Virus record (IMG/VR): IMGVR_UViG_3300030060_006600
Coordinates: 1-24,026 of that record
Direction: 5' to 3' (one strand)
Length of the DNA stretch: 24,026 nt
From: a virus
In this document: positions 3,027 through 24,026 of the stretch, in pieces
Numbering within the stretch: the stretch's first letter is position 1
Layout: each line of letters opens with the position of its first letter
The notes under the pieces: generated by a model
Database searches by the model: none
What the model saw: only the letters and a program-made list of their open reading frames with translations
What the model was told of the DNA's origin: nothing
Program-made: the position numbers and the translations under genes

Positions 3027-5606
3027 ATGAGCATACTGGAAACTAATGAAGATTATAAATTATTAAATACCATTGATGGTTTTGAGGAATCGTTCAACAA
3101 TTCCAATCAGGGTTCGACTCTTCAACCGTCCGGAAAGTCAAAAGAGGTCGCCCAGGTCTTGGGTGCGAATATAACCAGAGAACAGCGCCATCAGATATAT
3201 AAAGAACAGTATCCGTATTTAAATGCTACGGATATTGATGCAGTTGCGAAGTTGTCAAATTCATCAGAAGATAAGTTTGCACTACTTTTAACAAAATTTG
3301 ATTTGATCAAGAAGAGCGACCAATCAAATAAAATTAGAGCAGCCCGCAATAAGTCAATTGACGAAAATGATTCTTTAAGCCCAGAAGCAAAAGAACAGTT
3401 AAAAAAAGACCCTAGCCTAATATTTGAGGCAGAAAAAGCTGTAGAATCAGGGGAGAAAACCCCCGAAGAGGCAGTGGAAGATATTGAAAACTATATTGCC
3501 CAAGAATATTCAAAAGCCGCATCTTTCGTACATCAGAATTACTTATTGTTAAACAGCAATGAAATAAACAAAGTCCTAAGAAGCAGCAAGGTTTATCCAA
3601 AATATCACAGAACCTTGGTCTCTAGGGTGCCGGATAGCTCATCAAACCCTCTTGGTCCATATGTGGGAAAAAAAGAGGGTGCAAAACTATTGGGATTCAC
3701 AACCGAGCAGCTGTCGTCCCTCGTTCCGCGCATAAAGCTTTTTAAAATTATTATTGAAGGCTCCAAGAGGAAAAAAATAGAAATTCCATTTCCTACGGTA
3801 AGTCTAGGATATGCACAAACAGGAAAGATCTTTAGGCAATCCCCAAATGATAAGGGGCAATATTTTAAAAATAGAGATGGCTTTGGAATAAGGTCTTTCG
3901 AGTGGCAATACAATGGTCAAAATGAGGCGACCAAGTTTACAGACTTATCTGCAAATTTGAGCTTGTATTTTCAAGATTTTGGACAACTCACCGCCGAGAG
4001 ACAGAGCAACGATGGGTCTACCTTTACATATTTAGATTTAATATTGCCAAGAGAGGCGGTAAATATAGATGATGCCAAGGTTGGAAAAGATACAAATGCT
4101 TTTGTATTAGCCGAAGTAGGCTGGGCCACACCCAGCGGAAGCAGTCTTTTTACCAGTGAGGAAATGAAGGCAATAGAAGAAAATAAAATAACAATGTTCC
4201 TGCAACAAATAAACTATGAACTAGATTTTGATAGTGACACCACAGCAGCCTTCACTTTAAACATTGAATATCATTCTGCCTATGAGACAATGGCAAAAAA
4301 CTCCTTCTTGAATGCCATCTTGCCAAGCGTGTTTATCTGCGGTCAAATAAAAGATAAAAAAGACCAAATAGATGCCGCAAAAGAGAAAACTACATCGGGA
4401 GATAACGATAAATCATCTGAACAACTCAAGAAATTAGATGATGAATTTAGTAAAATCAAAGAAGAGGCTGTCAGGGATTCATATAAATTTATTTTTACAA
4501 AGTTGCTAGAGAAAAATAGAATACATTATTTGAAAGCATCTCTTTCTCAAATTTTGAATTTCCAAGGTGTAGACCCTCAAGCGGTATCCGCAATAGCTTC
4601 ATCGAATAAGTTATCAGATGAGCAAAAAATAAATGTACAACAAGATATAGATACTTGGCAAAACGCAGCAGCTGATGAAAACGATCAAAGCGAAGACATA
4701 TATTTTGTTTATTTGGGAGATCTTTTAGATTTAATGGCAGTTAATGCCACAGATTCAGCAAAATTAGTTGCCCTGGGTAGAGACCCTAATGTCAGTAACA
4801 GTATCAGAATATTGACCACAAATACTGGTTTTGGCTCAGGTGAAATCAATATTGCAGACATTCCTATAGATGTTAAATTGTTAGCTAACTTTTTTTATGA
4901 AGAAGTGATTGCCAAACGACGAATAACAATAAGTATTAATGAATTTATTAAAGAGTTATTGGCCAAGTTGGTAGAAAATAAAATCGAAAAATTTTCTGAA
5001 AACTACAAGCCAACTAAGAGCGTATACCAGACTACCTTTATTGACTCTAAAAATAAAACCGTTGGCTTGGTGGAGTCTATTAGTTCTTTGAGGTCATCTT
5101 TCTTGCCGGGTACAAACTATAGTTACATGTCCATTTACACCGTTCCAAAAGATGGTTCGGAATATTTTTTGAAATATCCGAATGATTATGCGAGGTCAAA
5201 AAGGGAAGACTTGGATCAAAGGGGTGTATATCATTTTGTTTTTGGGTCAAAAGACTCTGTTGTAAAAAGTGCTACATTTAAAAAAACGGACATTGAAAAT
5301 CTTAAAGAGCAAAGAATTTTTGAAACACAAAATCCTTATGCTTTGTTGGCAAATCAGTTCTCTGTTGATATTGATATGTTTGGAAACACACTATTTTACC
5401 CCGGTAGATTGATTTATGTCAACCCAGCTCACTCTCTTGGTGGCTCTGGAAGACCATGGATCGAAGGAAGCGCATATCAGATTATGGGCTTGGGAGGATA
5501 TCATCAGATAAGGACAGTCAGGAGCCAAATATCAGATGGTGCTTTTTCTACCCAACTTGAGGCAGACTTTGTAGCGTCTGGATTCAAACCAAAAAAGAAC
5601 GGATAA
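3027..5606 (+). CDS. Large putative baseplate hub/structural protein
   Basis: An 859-residue protein with ATG at 3027 behind AGGAGAG. Residues 1-160 are highly charged and helical. A beta-rich segment follows (~210-420), then a charged helical insertion (~435-560), then a second beta-rich region to the end. The last ~80 residues contain FGNTLFYPGRLIYVNP, then GLGGYHQIRTVRSQI and STQLEADF. This order (a 'height/position of the barrel' glycine-proline strand, then G-x-Y-x-I-x-x-V, then a final T-x-L-x-x-x-F strand) is typical of gp27/late-gene-D type hub barrels. No lysozyme or peptidase motif was seen, so it is probably purely structural. It follows the LysM baseplate gene. The hub call rests on C-terminal pattern and gene order. 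Confidence 0.5.
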   Translation: MSILETNEDYKLLNTIDGFEESFNNSNQGSTLQPSGKSKEVAQVLGANITREQRHQIYKEQYPYLNATDIDAVAKLSNSSEDKFALLLTKFDLIKKSDQSNKIRAARNKSIDENDSLSPEAKEQLKKDPSLIFEAEKAVESGEKTPEEAVEDIENYIAQEYSKAASFVHQNYLLLNSNEINKVLRSSKVYPKYHRTLVSRVPDSSSNPLGPYVGKKEGAKLLGFTTEQLSSLVPRIKLFKIIIEGSKRKKIEIPFPTVSLGYAQTGKIFRQSPNDKGQYFKNRDGFGIRSFEWQYNGQNEATKFTDLSANLSLYFQDFGQLTAERQSNDGSTFTYLDLILPREAVNIDDAKVGKDTNAFVLAEVGWATPSGSSLFTSEEMKAIEENKITMFLQQINYELDFDSDTTAAFTLNIEYHSAYETMAKNSFLNAILPSVFICGQIKDKKDQIDAAKEKTTSGDNDKSSEQLKKLDDEFSKIKEEAVRDSYKFIFTKLLEKNRIHYLKASLSQILNFQGVDPQAVSAIASSNKLSDEQKINVQQDIDTWQNAAADENDQSEDIYFVYLGDLLDLMAVNATDSAKLVALGRDPNVSNSIRILTTNTGFGSGEINIADIPIDVKLLANFFYEEVIAKRRITISINEFIKELLAKLVENKIEKFSENYKPTKSVYQTTFIDSKNKTVGLVESISSLRSSFLPGTNYSYMSIYTVPKDGSEYFLKYPNDYARSKREDLDQRGVYHFVFGSKDSVVKSATFKKTDIENLKEQRIFETQNPYALLANQFSVDIDMFGNTLFYPGRLIYVNPAHSLGGSGRPWIEGSAYQIMGLGGYHQIRTVRSQISDGAFSTQLEADFVASGFKPKKNG

Positions 5607-21523: not shown

Positions 21524-22393
21524 TTGACTTTAAATAAGCATATATATCAGTATGACACCATTGTTATTGGAGGTGGTTTAAATGCTAAAGTGTATGCTTA
21601 TTATAATAAGTGCCCTTGTGTTAATGGAAGCGTTGATGCTCCCTTTAGGTTTGATATGTTGGAACAAGGAATGCCCTTATTCTCGACAAAAAACAAACTT
21701 CAGACGTTCGAAGAAATAACGTTCTTGCTGGGTCTGTCTGGGCAGTTACCCATGGGAGACAAAAGGTGCTCGATAAACATCAGGGGAGATACTTTGAAGG
21801 TGATTACTTCTAGTTCTCGCATTGCGATGTTTGAATTTAATAAGTTAATCATCTTTGATGACGCTAATGTGTTTGGTTTGCCTCCAATAAAAGAAAAGAA
21901 AGTTAGAAAATCACGAGTTTTAGACTGGTTTGATGTGCGCTCTGGTATGGAGCACGACTTTGACTTACTTAATACCCAAGACGACTTCATCAAGAAAGTT
22001 TTCTTTTATCCCTCCGACAGATTCGGAAGCCAAAAGTCAGCAAGGGTCAGGAAAGATCTTGTGGCTGTATCATACCTTGAGCAAGATGACGTAAAAGATT
22101 TTGAATATTCTGACACAATGGCCAGGTTTAAAATCCTACAGATGATGAAAGACGCTGGCATTAAGGGTGCTCGTAATGGTCGAGACACAAACAACCCAAA
22201 ACTTTATAGATATTATTCTCCAAAGATCGAGGCTACCCAGAGGCAAATTATTCCAGATGTTACGAAATATTATGAAGAAGATCCTCGGTTTGAATTTCGC
22301 TATGATACTCCAGAGGAGATAATAAAAGAATTCGACAAAGAACCTGACAGCTACGCCTCAAAATTAATAAACTTATTAACCAAAACAAACTAA
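21524..22393 (+). CDS. Conserved-looking phage protein with Rossmann-type N-terminus
   Basis: A 289-residue protein read from TTG at 21524; the next Met is at residue 47, which would remove the N-terminal motif. Residues 10-22 (YDTIVIGGGLNAK) look like a FAD/NAD-binding beta-loop-helix (G-x-G-x-x-A form), recalling UDP-galactopyranose mutase or amine oxidase starts. The rest of an FAD-dependent enzyme is not recognisable. Distinct blocks further on include VLDWFDVRSGMEHDFDLL (~126-143), KVFFYPSDRFGS (~152-163), VAVSYLEQDDVKDFEYSD (~173-190) and AGIKGARNGRDTN (~204-216). I recall similar blocks in uncharacterised phage proteins but no function. It lies after RNR and the chaperonin genes. Confidence 0.5.
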   Translation: MTLNKHIYQYDTIVIGGGLNAKVYAYYNKCPCVNGSVDAPFRFDMLEQGMPLFSTKNKLQTFEEITFLLGLSGQLPMGDKRCSINIRGDTLKVITSSSRIAMFEFNKLIIFDDANVFGLPPIKEKKVRKSRVLDWFDVRSGMEHDFDLLNTQDDFIKKVFFYPSDRFGSQKSARVRKDLVAVSYLEQDDVKDFEYSDTMARFKILQMMKDAGIKGARNGRDTNNPKLYRYYSPKIEATQRQIIPDVTKYYEEDPRFEFRYDTPEEIIKEFDKEPDSYASKLINLLTKTN

Positions 22394-22404
22394 TTATATA
22401 AGTT

Positions 22405-22602
22405 ATGGGACACTTAAAAGACGTTAACGAATCTTACTTAACTCATTGCCGACATGCCTTGGCTTTGAGTTCTCGTCTTTTGGTTGCCTCTGTTGGGCAA
22501 GCACTACACGCTTTTGTTCCAGATGTACATCCACCACTCGGTTCTGATGTGAGATCTCTTATTTCATTTCTGGAATCAAAATTACCGGAGAATAGAAAAT
22601 GA
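22405..22602 (+). CDS. DUF6356-like small protein, 65 aa
   Basis: The ATG at 22405 has no clear ribosome site. The product has MGHLKDVNESYLTHCRHALALS, then a hydrophobic stretch (SRLLVASVGQALHAFVP, ~22-40), then a short C-terminal helix. The order H-L-x-x-V-x-x-S/T-Y-x-x-H-x-x-x-A and a later H-A-x-x-P match, from memory, small membrane-associated proteins grouped as DUF6356. Function is unknown to me. It overlaps the next gene by four bases (ATGA), so it is co-translated with the first MKLLLENWR protein. A membrane role such as holin or superinfection protein is possible but unproved. Confidence 0.6.
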   Translation: MGHLKDVNESYLTHCRHALALSSRLLVASVGQALHAFVPDVHPPLGSDVRSLISFLESKLPENRK

Positions 22603-22640
22603 AACTCCTACTTGAAAATTGGCGAGGATATATTAAGGAA
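22599..22640 (+). repeat. Leader-coding repeat copy 1
   Basis: The first 42 bases of the gene, encoding MKLLLENWRGYIKE. They are nearly identical in DNA to 23226-23267 and 23797-23838, with mismatches mainly at third positions and at the G/E10 codon. Similarity stops abruptly after the IKE codons. Confidence 0.9.
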
Positions 22641-23225
22641 GCTGAAGTTCCGTACAAAAAAATACAAGCAATTATAGATGGAAATCAGTACCTCAAGGGA
22701 AAGATTAATGCTACACCAGATACGATTTATGATATGGGAGACAGATACTTTCTTATGTCAGGTGTATCACATATTGCCGAGAGACATAGAGACAAGTGTT
22801 TTCCCGGTTCATTATTTTTGGTAGATGATGATGTGGTTAAAGAGGCAATATTAAAGATTGTAAAAGAAATGCCGCCCGAAGCTGGCAAAGTGTTGGCAGT
22901 GCCTTCTGGCATCTCTAGGCTGGGAATGGAGCGACTGGTAAAGTCATCTGCTGAAGAAATAGCCGAACTTGAAGATTACAAGATGAAAGACGGAACTATG
23001 ATTAAAATTAAAAAAGAAGGTCAAAATCCGGGACAAGTAACAGATCGCCTTACAGTCATAGCTCCAGTAATTGGCACCGCAGCCGGTAAGCCAGTCTTAT
23101 CTCTTGTGACTGCTTTTCCCGGCTTTATGGGTACTGGCGAAGGCGGCGACGGAGATGTTGAAATTAAAAACAGGGCTGATTTCACAAAGAATGGGTATTA
23201 TTTTTTAATACCAGAAGGTTGTTAG
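22599..23225 (+). CDS. Leader-bearing protein 1 with BECR-nuclease-like body
   Basis: A 208-residue protein with ATG at 22599 overlapping the upstream stop and CCGGAG upstream. The first 14 residues (MKLLLENWRGYIKE) are shared with the next two genes. The body has SGVSHIAERHRDKCFPGSLF (54-73), helical segments with a KEMPP turn (89-93), a two-strand region with KMKDGTMIKIKK (128-139), DRLTVIAPV (149-157) and a final strand LSLVTAFPGF (167-176). The pattern H-I-x-x-R-H, then strands ending in T-x-F/Y-P, recalls phage BECR-fold (barnase/EndoU/colicin D/RelE-like) nucleases, where H58, R62 and H63 would be catalytic candidates. This suggests an RNA-cleaving effector. The leader ends in YIKE, which resembles a prohead-protease site. 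Both points are inference; no signal peptide or membrane segment is present. Confidence 0.5.
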   Translation: MKLLLENWRGYIKEAEVPYKKIQAIIDGNQYLKGKINATPDTIYDMGDRYFLMSGVSHIAERHRDKCFPGSLFLVDDDVVKEAILKIVKEMPPEAGKVLAVPSGISRLGMERLVKSSAEEIAELEDYKMKDGTMIKIKKEGQNPGQVTDRLTVIAPVIGTAAGKPVLSLVTAFPGFMGTGEGGDGDVEIKNRADFTKNGYYFLIPEGC

Positions 23226-23267
23226 ATGAAACTCCTACTTGAAAATTGGCGAGAATATATCAAAGAG
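23226..23267 (+). repeat. Leader-coding repeat copy 2
   Basis: The first 42 bases of the second gene, encoding MKLLLENWREYIKE, close to identical to copies 1 and 3. It runs into a strong GC hairpin at 23266-23290. Confidence 0.9.
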
Positions 23268-23813
23268 GGGAGTGAGGGATCCTCTCCCCTTGACTTAGAG
23301 ATCAAGCCAGAGCAAAAAATTCTCGCACTTAGCGAACCGTGGAAGGGTTTTCCATCGGGCATTAAGCAAGTCAAGGGGCCTAAACCAAATGGTGTTTGGT
23401 ATGGCTGCGGCGATTCGTGGCTTAAGTGGATGTCGCAAGAGATGCCCAAATGGTTAGACCAAGTAAATTATGTTTATGAGCTTGAAATAAACGATGAATT
23501 TATGAAAGTTATCACCAATGCCGAACAGTTTGAGAACTTCGAGCGCGAGTTCGGTGCTAGGGCACCGTATCAGGAAAATACATCGCGCCGCATTGATTGG
23601 GTTGATTGGCCGCTTCTTGCAGACATCGACTGGGATGGGATAGAGATTTGCCCATACCTTTGGGAATTCCGCCTAAGCAACAGTGGATGGTATTACCCGT
23701 GGGATGTCGCTTCAGGATGTATTTGGAATTCGGAAGCCCTAGTTGGTGATCCAAAATTATTGTGGCAGAGGAACCCAGAAAAAGAGGAGGAAGAAAATGA
23801 AACTCCTGCTTGA
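23226..23813 (+). CDS. Leader-bearing protein 2, aromatic-rich body of unknown fold
   Basis: A 195-residue protein whose ATG at 23226 directly follows the previous stop codon (TAGATG). The first 14 residues are MKLLLENWREYIKE. The body is rich in W and Y: KPNGVWYGCGDSWLKWM (53-69), VYELEIND (83-90), a helix NAEQFENFEREFG (98-110), DWDGIEICPY (135-144) and WYYPWDVASGCIWN (155-168). These last two blocks are very like a recurrent family of bacterial and phage proteins I cannot name. The strand order (K-P-x-G-x-W-Y, later D-x-I-E-I, final W-D-x-A-S-G-C-I-W) could fit an ADP-ribosyltransferase-like fold, which is speculation. The C-terminus is an acidic tail (EKEEEENETPA) that overlaps the next gene by 17 bases. 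Confidence 0.6.
   Translation: MKLLLENWREYIKEGSEGSSPLDLEIKPEQKILALSEPWKGFPSGIKQVKGPKPNGVWYGCGDSWLKWMSQEMPKWLDQVNYVYELEINDEFMKVITNAEQFENFEREFGARAPYQENTSRRIDWVDWPLLADIDWDGIEICPYLWEFRLSNSGWYYPWDVASGCIWNSEALVGDPKLLWQRNPEKEEEENETPA
23266..23290 (+). other. Hairpin at the end of leader repeat copy 2
   Basis: AGGGGAG (23266-23272) pairs perfectly with CTCCCCT (23284-23290) around an 11-base loop, inside the coding region exactly where leader homology ends. It encodes a low-complexity link (EGSEGSSPL). It could be a recombination junction scar, or it could slow ribosomes or polymerase; it could also be chance. Confidence 0.4.
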
Positions 23814-23838
23814 AAATTGGCGAGAATATATCAAGGAA
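23797..23838 (+). repeat. Leader-coding repeat copy 3
   Basis: The first 42 bases of the third gene, encoding MKLLLENWREYIKE, differing from copy 2 at a few third positions. It sits inside the end of gene 2 in another frame, so the repeat was fitted onto an existing gene end. Confidence 0.9.
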
Positions 23839-24026
23839 CAAGAAGAGACTAATGAAATCTTAGGTATGGGCAAGAAATACATTGATTTTGACACCGATCA
23901 TCTGGATGCTATTCAACAAATCCCCATTGCCATTAATCATGCAGTGAGAGGTCTGGAAGAAGAAGGATACTCTCAAGAGCTTTATAAAGAATATCTTGAA
24001 AAATTAATAAAAGAATATGAGGAAGA
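23797..24026 (+). CDS. Leader-bearing protein 3, start only (3' end outside window)
   Basis: ATG at 23797 behind AGAGGAGGAAG, overlapping the previous gene by 17 bases. The first 14 residues are again MKLLLENWREYIKE. The visible 76 residues continue with QEETNEILGMGKKY, IDFDTDHLDAIQQIPIAINH and a highly charged helix (LEEEGYSQELYKEYLEKLIK). This body shows no similarity to the two previous ones. The open frame reaches the window edge. Function is unknown; gene order and leader tie it to the same group. Confidence 0.75.
   Translation, partial: MKLLLENWREYIKEQEETNEILGMGKKYIDFDTDHLDAIQQIPIAINHAVRGLEEEGYSQELYKEYLEKLIKEYEE

Follow-up and report, generated by a model that had tools for sequence, protein, structure and literature searches.

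A shared N-terminal leader on unrelated proteins of uncultured marine Far-T4 phages resembles the capsid-targeting propeptide of T4 internal proteins

Why do three neighbouring phage genes, whose products otherwise lack mutual similarity, begin with almost the same 42 bases? This question is raised by the end of the window analysed here, a stretch comprising bases 1-24026 of the 60,679-bp IMG/VR record IMGVR_UViG_3300030060_006600. The window opens within a tail gene, also holds replication genes, and closes with a run of four plus-strand genes (22405-22602, 22599-23225, 23226-23813 and 23797 onward), in which consecutive genes abut or overlap. The first encodes a DUF6356 protein of 65 aa (Pfam PF19883, E=9.9e-11) without the leader; it heads the run and overlaps the start of the first leader gene. 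The other three, ORF1 to ORF3, open with MKLLLENWRGYIKE (22599-22640, with I-K-E ending at residue 14), MKLLLENWREYIKE (23226-23267) and again MKLLLENWREYIKE (23797-23838, overlapping the end of ORF2), which we call leader A. Pairwise mismatches among the three 42-base copies number 4, 3 and 3, and the bodies behind them show no mutual similarity (BLOSUM62 body scores of -10 to -17), confirming the original prediction of three adjacent genes with a near-identical leader and unrelated bodies. No further copy of leader A is present in the whole record. The record contains runs of ten Ns, which are assembly gaps, at 24027-24036, 54200-54209 and 55492-55501, and the first of these interrupts the third leader gene exactly at the window end.

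The ORF1 body (22641-23225) has leader-bearing homologues elsewhere (72% identity to L080/L346, 74% to L345 and 41% to L351) and no match in Pfam, PDB or cultured phages. The ORF2 body (23268-23813) belongs to the phrog_8582 family (PHROG, E=3.3e-9). Homologues of ORF2 bearing a leader are found in L339-L343, and its matches in Microbacterium and Mycobacterium phages span residues ~47-177, namely the body with the leader excluded. This actinophage pattern is consistent with a leader that was joined to an already existing protein. The ORF3 body (23839-24026) is truncated by the window end; the protein has 342 aa in the near relative L127, to which the DNA is 92.9% identical over a 546-bp alignment beginning just 5' of leader copy 3. 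AlphaFold models were poor (mean pLDDT of 41.1 for ORF1 and 38.8 for ORF2), and PDB profile searches with ORF1 and ORF2 gave nothing credible, the weak matches (E 0.04-0.4) being taken as chance.

Ahead of the four-gene run lies ACTAATTATA (22389-22398, plus strand), which is conserved in L339, is similar to ACTATTTAT/ACTAATTA, the forms that precede gp22 in relatives, and is tentatively annotated as a putative late promoter. A CTATTTAT/CTAATTAT motif was seen on the coding strand before gp22 (L144, L146, L147 and L153), before many leader genes and at 22389 of the window, often 11-40 nt from the ATG, and may serve this clade as its late promoter, in which case the mRNA leaders would be very short. 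The sequence CTA(T/A)TTA occurs upstream of 33/142 leader genes on the coding strand versus 1/142 on the reverse strand, but also upstream of 150/936 other genes. As evidence for a late promoter, the motif is too unspecific to be given weight.

The 14-residue consensus of leader A is MKLLxENWR-x-(Y/F)(L/I)-x-E. The pattern MK-L-x-x-E-N-W-R was found in at least 120 stretches of viral contigs, where as many as six copies can lie within ~5 kb, whereas the reversed pattern was found in none, and chance is therefore excluded. When applied to ten large relatives, a stricter pattern with the (Y/F)-hydrophobic-x-E ending matched 1-9 times in each, and its control gave zero matches in the same ten. 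Among bacteria and archaea, 84,980 genomes gave 35 matches, mostly short chance frames or an internal motif that we interpret as glucose-6-phosphate dehydrogenase. Only two of the 35 are leader-like, in the Opitutia MAG PBSV01000031.1 (L172) and the WOR-3 MAG CP070664.1 (L178), and both are leader genes in phage DNA, amid phage genes. The presence of this phage DNA in the two MAGs is likely due to binning or assembly mixing; L178 also has a GroEL-like gene and genes resembling those at 42-43 kb of our record. A cellular protein family is thus ruled out by the nature of these 35 matches, and leader A is essentially restricted to phage contigs. Two of the checks proposed with the original prediction, a search of relatives for the leader, which they carry in many copies, and the question of whether it occurs mainly in non-phage proteins, accordingly came out in its favour. 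A portal protein in the leader set (probably L052, MKFIVENWRQIPFW) is apparently a chance pattern match.

If the leader is a propeptide, its end should be recognisable. T4 gp21 cleaves after L/I-X-E (PMC9026906), and the Y-I-K-E of the window had been predicted to obey this rule. Among the matches listed are 144 distinct leader-A proteins with 89 unrelated body families, retrieved by a search that fixed residues 1-9 and nothing beyond. In these listed proteins residue 11 is Y/F in 125, residue 12 is L/I in 111 and residue 14 is E in 108. An (L/I)-x-E triplet ends at residue 14 in 99/144 and at residue 15 in 13/144 of those listed, together 112/144 versus ~2% at other positions, which bears the prediction out. 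One-residue insertion variants (YLLTE, YMLKE and FIIKE) preserve the triplet. Another 13/144 of the listed proteins lack any nearby hydrophobic-x-E site, and some may therefore be uncleaved, or their frame altered. These 13 would also suit a different explanation, in which the leader is a signal for somewhere else (membrane, replication compartment, RNA polymerase or tail) and (L/I)-x-E is the end of an amphipathic helix; cargo enzymes such as the nuclease, GNAT and NUDIX proteins could likewise work in late infection. The survival of the triplet through a one-residue shift in spacing argues against such a helix end and for a cleavage site. Position-specific scoring did not single out a W-containing capsid pro-domain motif as the site from which leader A was copied, and this candidate was rejected. 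The gene after gp21 in G001 (L144 4981-6051) carries, near its N-terminus, an internal ATWRTFLNE that is similar to leader A in its second half.

Leader A is not the only shared N-terminus in these phages. When shared N-termini were sought within single genomes by an unsupervised search, G001 again yielded leader A and G007 a second family, MKITKSQLRKIIKEE. Run on part of T4 as a positive control, this search recovered the MKTYQEFIAE of ipII/ipIII; part of Flavobacterium phage immuto gave a related family, MKKSQLRQIIKEA. The second leader of the uncultured Far-T4 phages, leader B, reads MKITKxQLKQIIKEE, and its strict pattern occurs in at least 120 stretches; among the matches listed, 246 proteins of at least 60 aa fall into 210 families. 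In the leader-B matches listed, another (L/I)-x-E has its E at residue 22 in 67/258 and at residue 21 in 40/258; these residues lie outside the part fixed by the search, and the (L/I)-x-E background further on is ~1%. Some bodies are common to both leaders (L021/L245, 50% identity over 146 aa; L075/L323, 43% over 65 aa), and therefore leaders A and B appear interchangeable. That a different leader with the same ending motif swaps with leader A on the same cargo also speaks against a destination other than the head. The leader-B profile has as its next-best match a conserved head gene that follows gp21 (MKKSDLKQLIKPLVKECI...); a derivation of leader B from this gene would be a guess. In Microcystis phage Mel-JY01 (L217 16568-18842), at least three proteins with nothing else in common share a different N-terminus, MNTEEIDFKFN, which has no L-x-E ending.

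Do the phages concerned encode the matching protease and capsid? Head genes are absent from the 60,679-bp record because it is a fragment, and therefore the evidence was drawn from relatives. A homologue of the window tail protein (3027-5603) is present in 14/24 leader-bearing records and lies ~15-18 kb from gp23 in G001, G004, G006 and G007; the window phage therefore belongs to the same group. The nearest cultured phages to the major capsid protein of a leader-bearing phage are immuto, Mel-JY01 and RM378, an affinity that we take as placing the group in the Far-T4 area. Strict leader A and canonical leader B patterns are both absent from immuto, RM378, Mel-JY01 and T4, and tblastn of a 20-aa leader against cultured phages, a search of low power, gave nothing. 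In other parts of the record, inspection of translations suggests GroEL-like (40417-41991), ClpP-like (37837-38388), adenylosuccinate synthase-like (30904-31908) and IMP dehydrogenase-like (34703-35755) proteins. A very acidic 282-aa protein (36163-37011), starting with MSKKQVLNEVRRFMKLANL and having ACTATTTATTATG ahead of it, looks like a core/scaffold-type protein with a different N-terminal motif.

A gp21-type S77 protease (PF03420) was found in 13/24 leader-A and 13/18 leader-B records and gp23 (PF07068) in 14/24 leader-A records, counts that cover leader-positive records; both genes are present in all ten leader-A records of at least 139 kb. A conserved LL(R/K)E, with A, S, N or Q as the next residue, is found in the pro-domains of gp23; in the N-terminal region, gp21 has DLLTE or a close form and gp22 has LLEQ. 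Hence the relatives contain both items that the original prediction had asked for, a gp21-like protease and an (I/L)-x-E site in the capsid protein, the latter in the form L-(R/K)-E. Some leader genes lie inside the head operon. In G001, a leader-A variant, MKLLLEHWNRYLQE, is located between a gp68-like block and gp21. In L345, the 74% homologue of ORF1 occupies the same head-block slot and is followed by three leader-B genes, and the slot is flanked by genes 42-55% identical to head genes of G001 and G004. A leader-B gene adjoins gp21 in G003 and in G047. Members in head operons next to gp21, and a matching protease encoded by the same phages, again argue for the head as the destination, and we consider a signal for another site unlikely.

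The invariable position of the leader at the extreme N-terminus, and its many copies with uniform DNA, could alternatively be explained if it were a translation-start enhancer that raises the expression of accessory proteins. However, positions 11-14 are conserved as amino acids while synonymous variation is tolerated, and the DUF6356 gene in the same run does without the leader, as do gp21, gp22 and gp23. A translation enhancer thus seems scarcely credible next to a capsid-targeting propeptide.

The leader also marks the points at which the locus differs between phages. The order in the window is DUF6356, ORF1, ORF2 and ORF3, the last three with leader A, and three relatives differ from it after the same upstream genes. 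The DUF6356 gene forms a constant left border of the cassette, at the same position in L127, L011 and L339, and a 12-nt junction just 5' of the leader ATG (22587-22598, plus strand, core GAATAGAAA) is identical or near-identical ahead of leader genes in these relatives, in L011 at both ends of the insert. In L127, DUF6356 is followed by a different 148-aa leader-A gene and then by ORF3 with leader A; homology with the window ends at 22626, in the leader, and returns shortly ahead of the third leader, at 23792. In L011, an 84-aa leader-B gene stands between DUF6356 and ORF1 with leader A, and the DNA matches the window at 77.7% identity as far as 22604 and at 98.4% identity beginning at 22587; GAATAGAAAATGAAA flanks the L011 insert on both sides. 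L339 has DUF6356, a leader-B gene, ORF2 with leader A and further leader-A genes. Codon use differs between leader and body (CTC 0.42 versus 0.09, CTA 0.59 versus 0.11 and CGA 0.47 versus 0.15). From the breakpoints at the leader and its uniform codons it follows that leader DNA behaves as an exchange point, and the alternative cargo of L127, L011 and L339, with breakpoints at the leader, directly demonstrates the predicted module exchange.

These data can be read in another way, with the conserved element being mainly DNA, a recombination site or the end of a mobile cassette, and the peptide having no targeting role. The far greater uniformity of leader than body codons, the exact 26-mer of the window in 32/144 leader-A genes listed, the breakpoints within the leader and the occurrence of leader-only frames of 11 codons all fit it. 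On the other hand, the same peptide is encoded by 84 distinct 26-mers among those genes, conservation of the amino-acid motif and cleavage triplet extends past the shared DNA, and leader B has unrelated DNA with the same ending. We therefore regard a purely DNA-level role as quite improbable, and the targeting peptide as the preferred reading. The orphan leaders (L080 3537-3572, L064 2167-2202 and L067 5885-5920) read MKLLLENWRGL or MKLLLENWRGI and then stop; they may be landing sites, or scars left where a cassette was lost.

The closest parallel is found in the internal proteins of T4. In IPIII, the first ten residues, a 10-residue CTS, are required for head entry, leader residues 8 and 10 govern processing, and fusion experiments on leader-driven head incorporation exist (PMC9026906). 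Ip1-3 have only the leader in common, and each disables a different host restriction enzyme (PMC12373910). The likeness lies in a short N-terminal leader on unrelated proteins, in phages with gp21 and gp23, and in polymorphic cargo loci; MKTYQEFIAE of IPII/IPIII and leader A also both start with MK and end with aromatic-(I/L)-x-E (F-I-A-E against Y-L-N-E). Leader A differs from the T4 CTS in having 14 residues and ENWR, with no detectable homology beyond MK...(F/Y)(I/L)-x-E. The leader proteins lack the homology to MKTYQEFIAE or to IP bodies that defines the T4 IPI-III family, and therefore we do not file them as T4 IP. Unlike T4, the Far-T4 phages have a second, interchangeable leader and some members inside the head operon; each large genome carries 1-9 genes with the strict leader-A pattern and leader-B genes in addition, and the cargo families number in the hundreds. 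Packaging and cleavage of the Far-T4 leader proteins are predictions from sequence. T4 Alt, a packaged and injected ADP-ribosyltransferase with a short propeptide (PMC9026906), is likewise an enzyme cargo, but its leader is different (N-terminus MELITELFDE), and we identified no Alt homologue among the leader-bearing cargo. The head and ejection proteins of phiKZ and SPN3US are cut by a gp21-like protease, with the motif S/A-X-E in phiKZ (PMC9026906). These phages resemble ours in having many head proteins with protease-removed propeptides; they differ in clade and motif, and the available part of that source describes no single short common leader for them. The main text of the Far-T4 paper (Roux et al. 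2015, PMC4360716) does not contain the words gp21, prohead, scaffold, internal or leader, and a full-text literature search with the leader strings gave no earlier description. The T4 internal proteins are the precedent; the Far-T4 leaders themselves, the clade that carries them and the scale of their use seem not to have been described before.

Three features of the T4-type CTS class are found here: a common leader on unrelated proteins, an (L/I)-x-E end, and S77 protease and gp23 in relatives. We consider it probable that the leader acts as a capsid-targeting propeptide, in the manner of the T4 internal proteins, and serves a modular injected arsenal in an uncultured marine Far-T4 clade. This reading is well supported by the sequence comparisons; the system would work like the T4 internal proteins, is non-homologous to them by sequence and is far larger. 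We infer packaging, cleavage, injection and cargo function as follows. Leader-bearing proteins would be produced alongside head proteins, and the 14-residue leader would bind the prohead core, trapping unrelated cargo inside the prohead. The cargo would then be set free by the gp21-type protease, cutting behind an (L/I)-x-E that ends at residue 14 or 15 in leader A and, in leader B, at residue 14 or around residues 21-22. The freed cargo would exit with the DNA and go to work in the next cell infected, probably against the defences or enzymes of that host. The leader DNA, because it is nearly identical at the start of each gene, may double as a homology anchor that lets cargo genes enter, leave or change places.

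The cargo bodies are mostly without an assigned function. Recognisable ones include GNAT, NUDIX, an RNase T-like exonuclease, a zeta-toxin kinase, PGDYG, DUF192, an M23 peptidase and a 5'-3' deoxyribonucleotidase. PADLOC gave only scattered matches to defence and anti-defence genes among the cargo, and identification of the cargo with known genes of these kinds is thus unsupported.

We lean towards the broader view that Far-T4 phages have an open-ended plug-in delivery system, in which at least two interchangeable propeptides, with their DNA as recombination anchor, would carry hundreds of small proteins into marine bacteria. If so, the cargo would include nucleases, a zeta-toxin-like kinase, acetyltransferases and unknowns, and the leaders would provide a clear example of cargo exchange via common leader DNA as well as new targeting tags for loading proteins into phage heads. 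The leaders would also be a sequence-only handle on the injected anti-defence and takeover proteins of uncultured phages. If they act like the T4 Ip leader, hundreds of candidate injected effectors of uncultured ocean phages, nearly all without known function, could be listed by N-terminal pattern.
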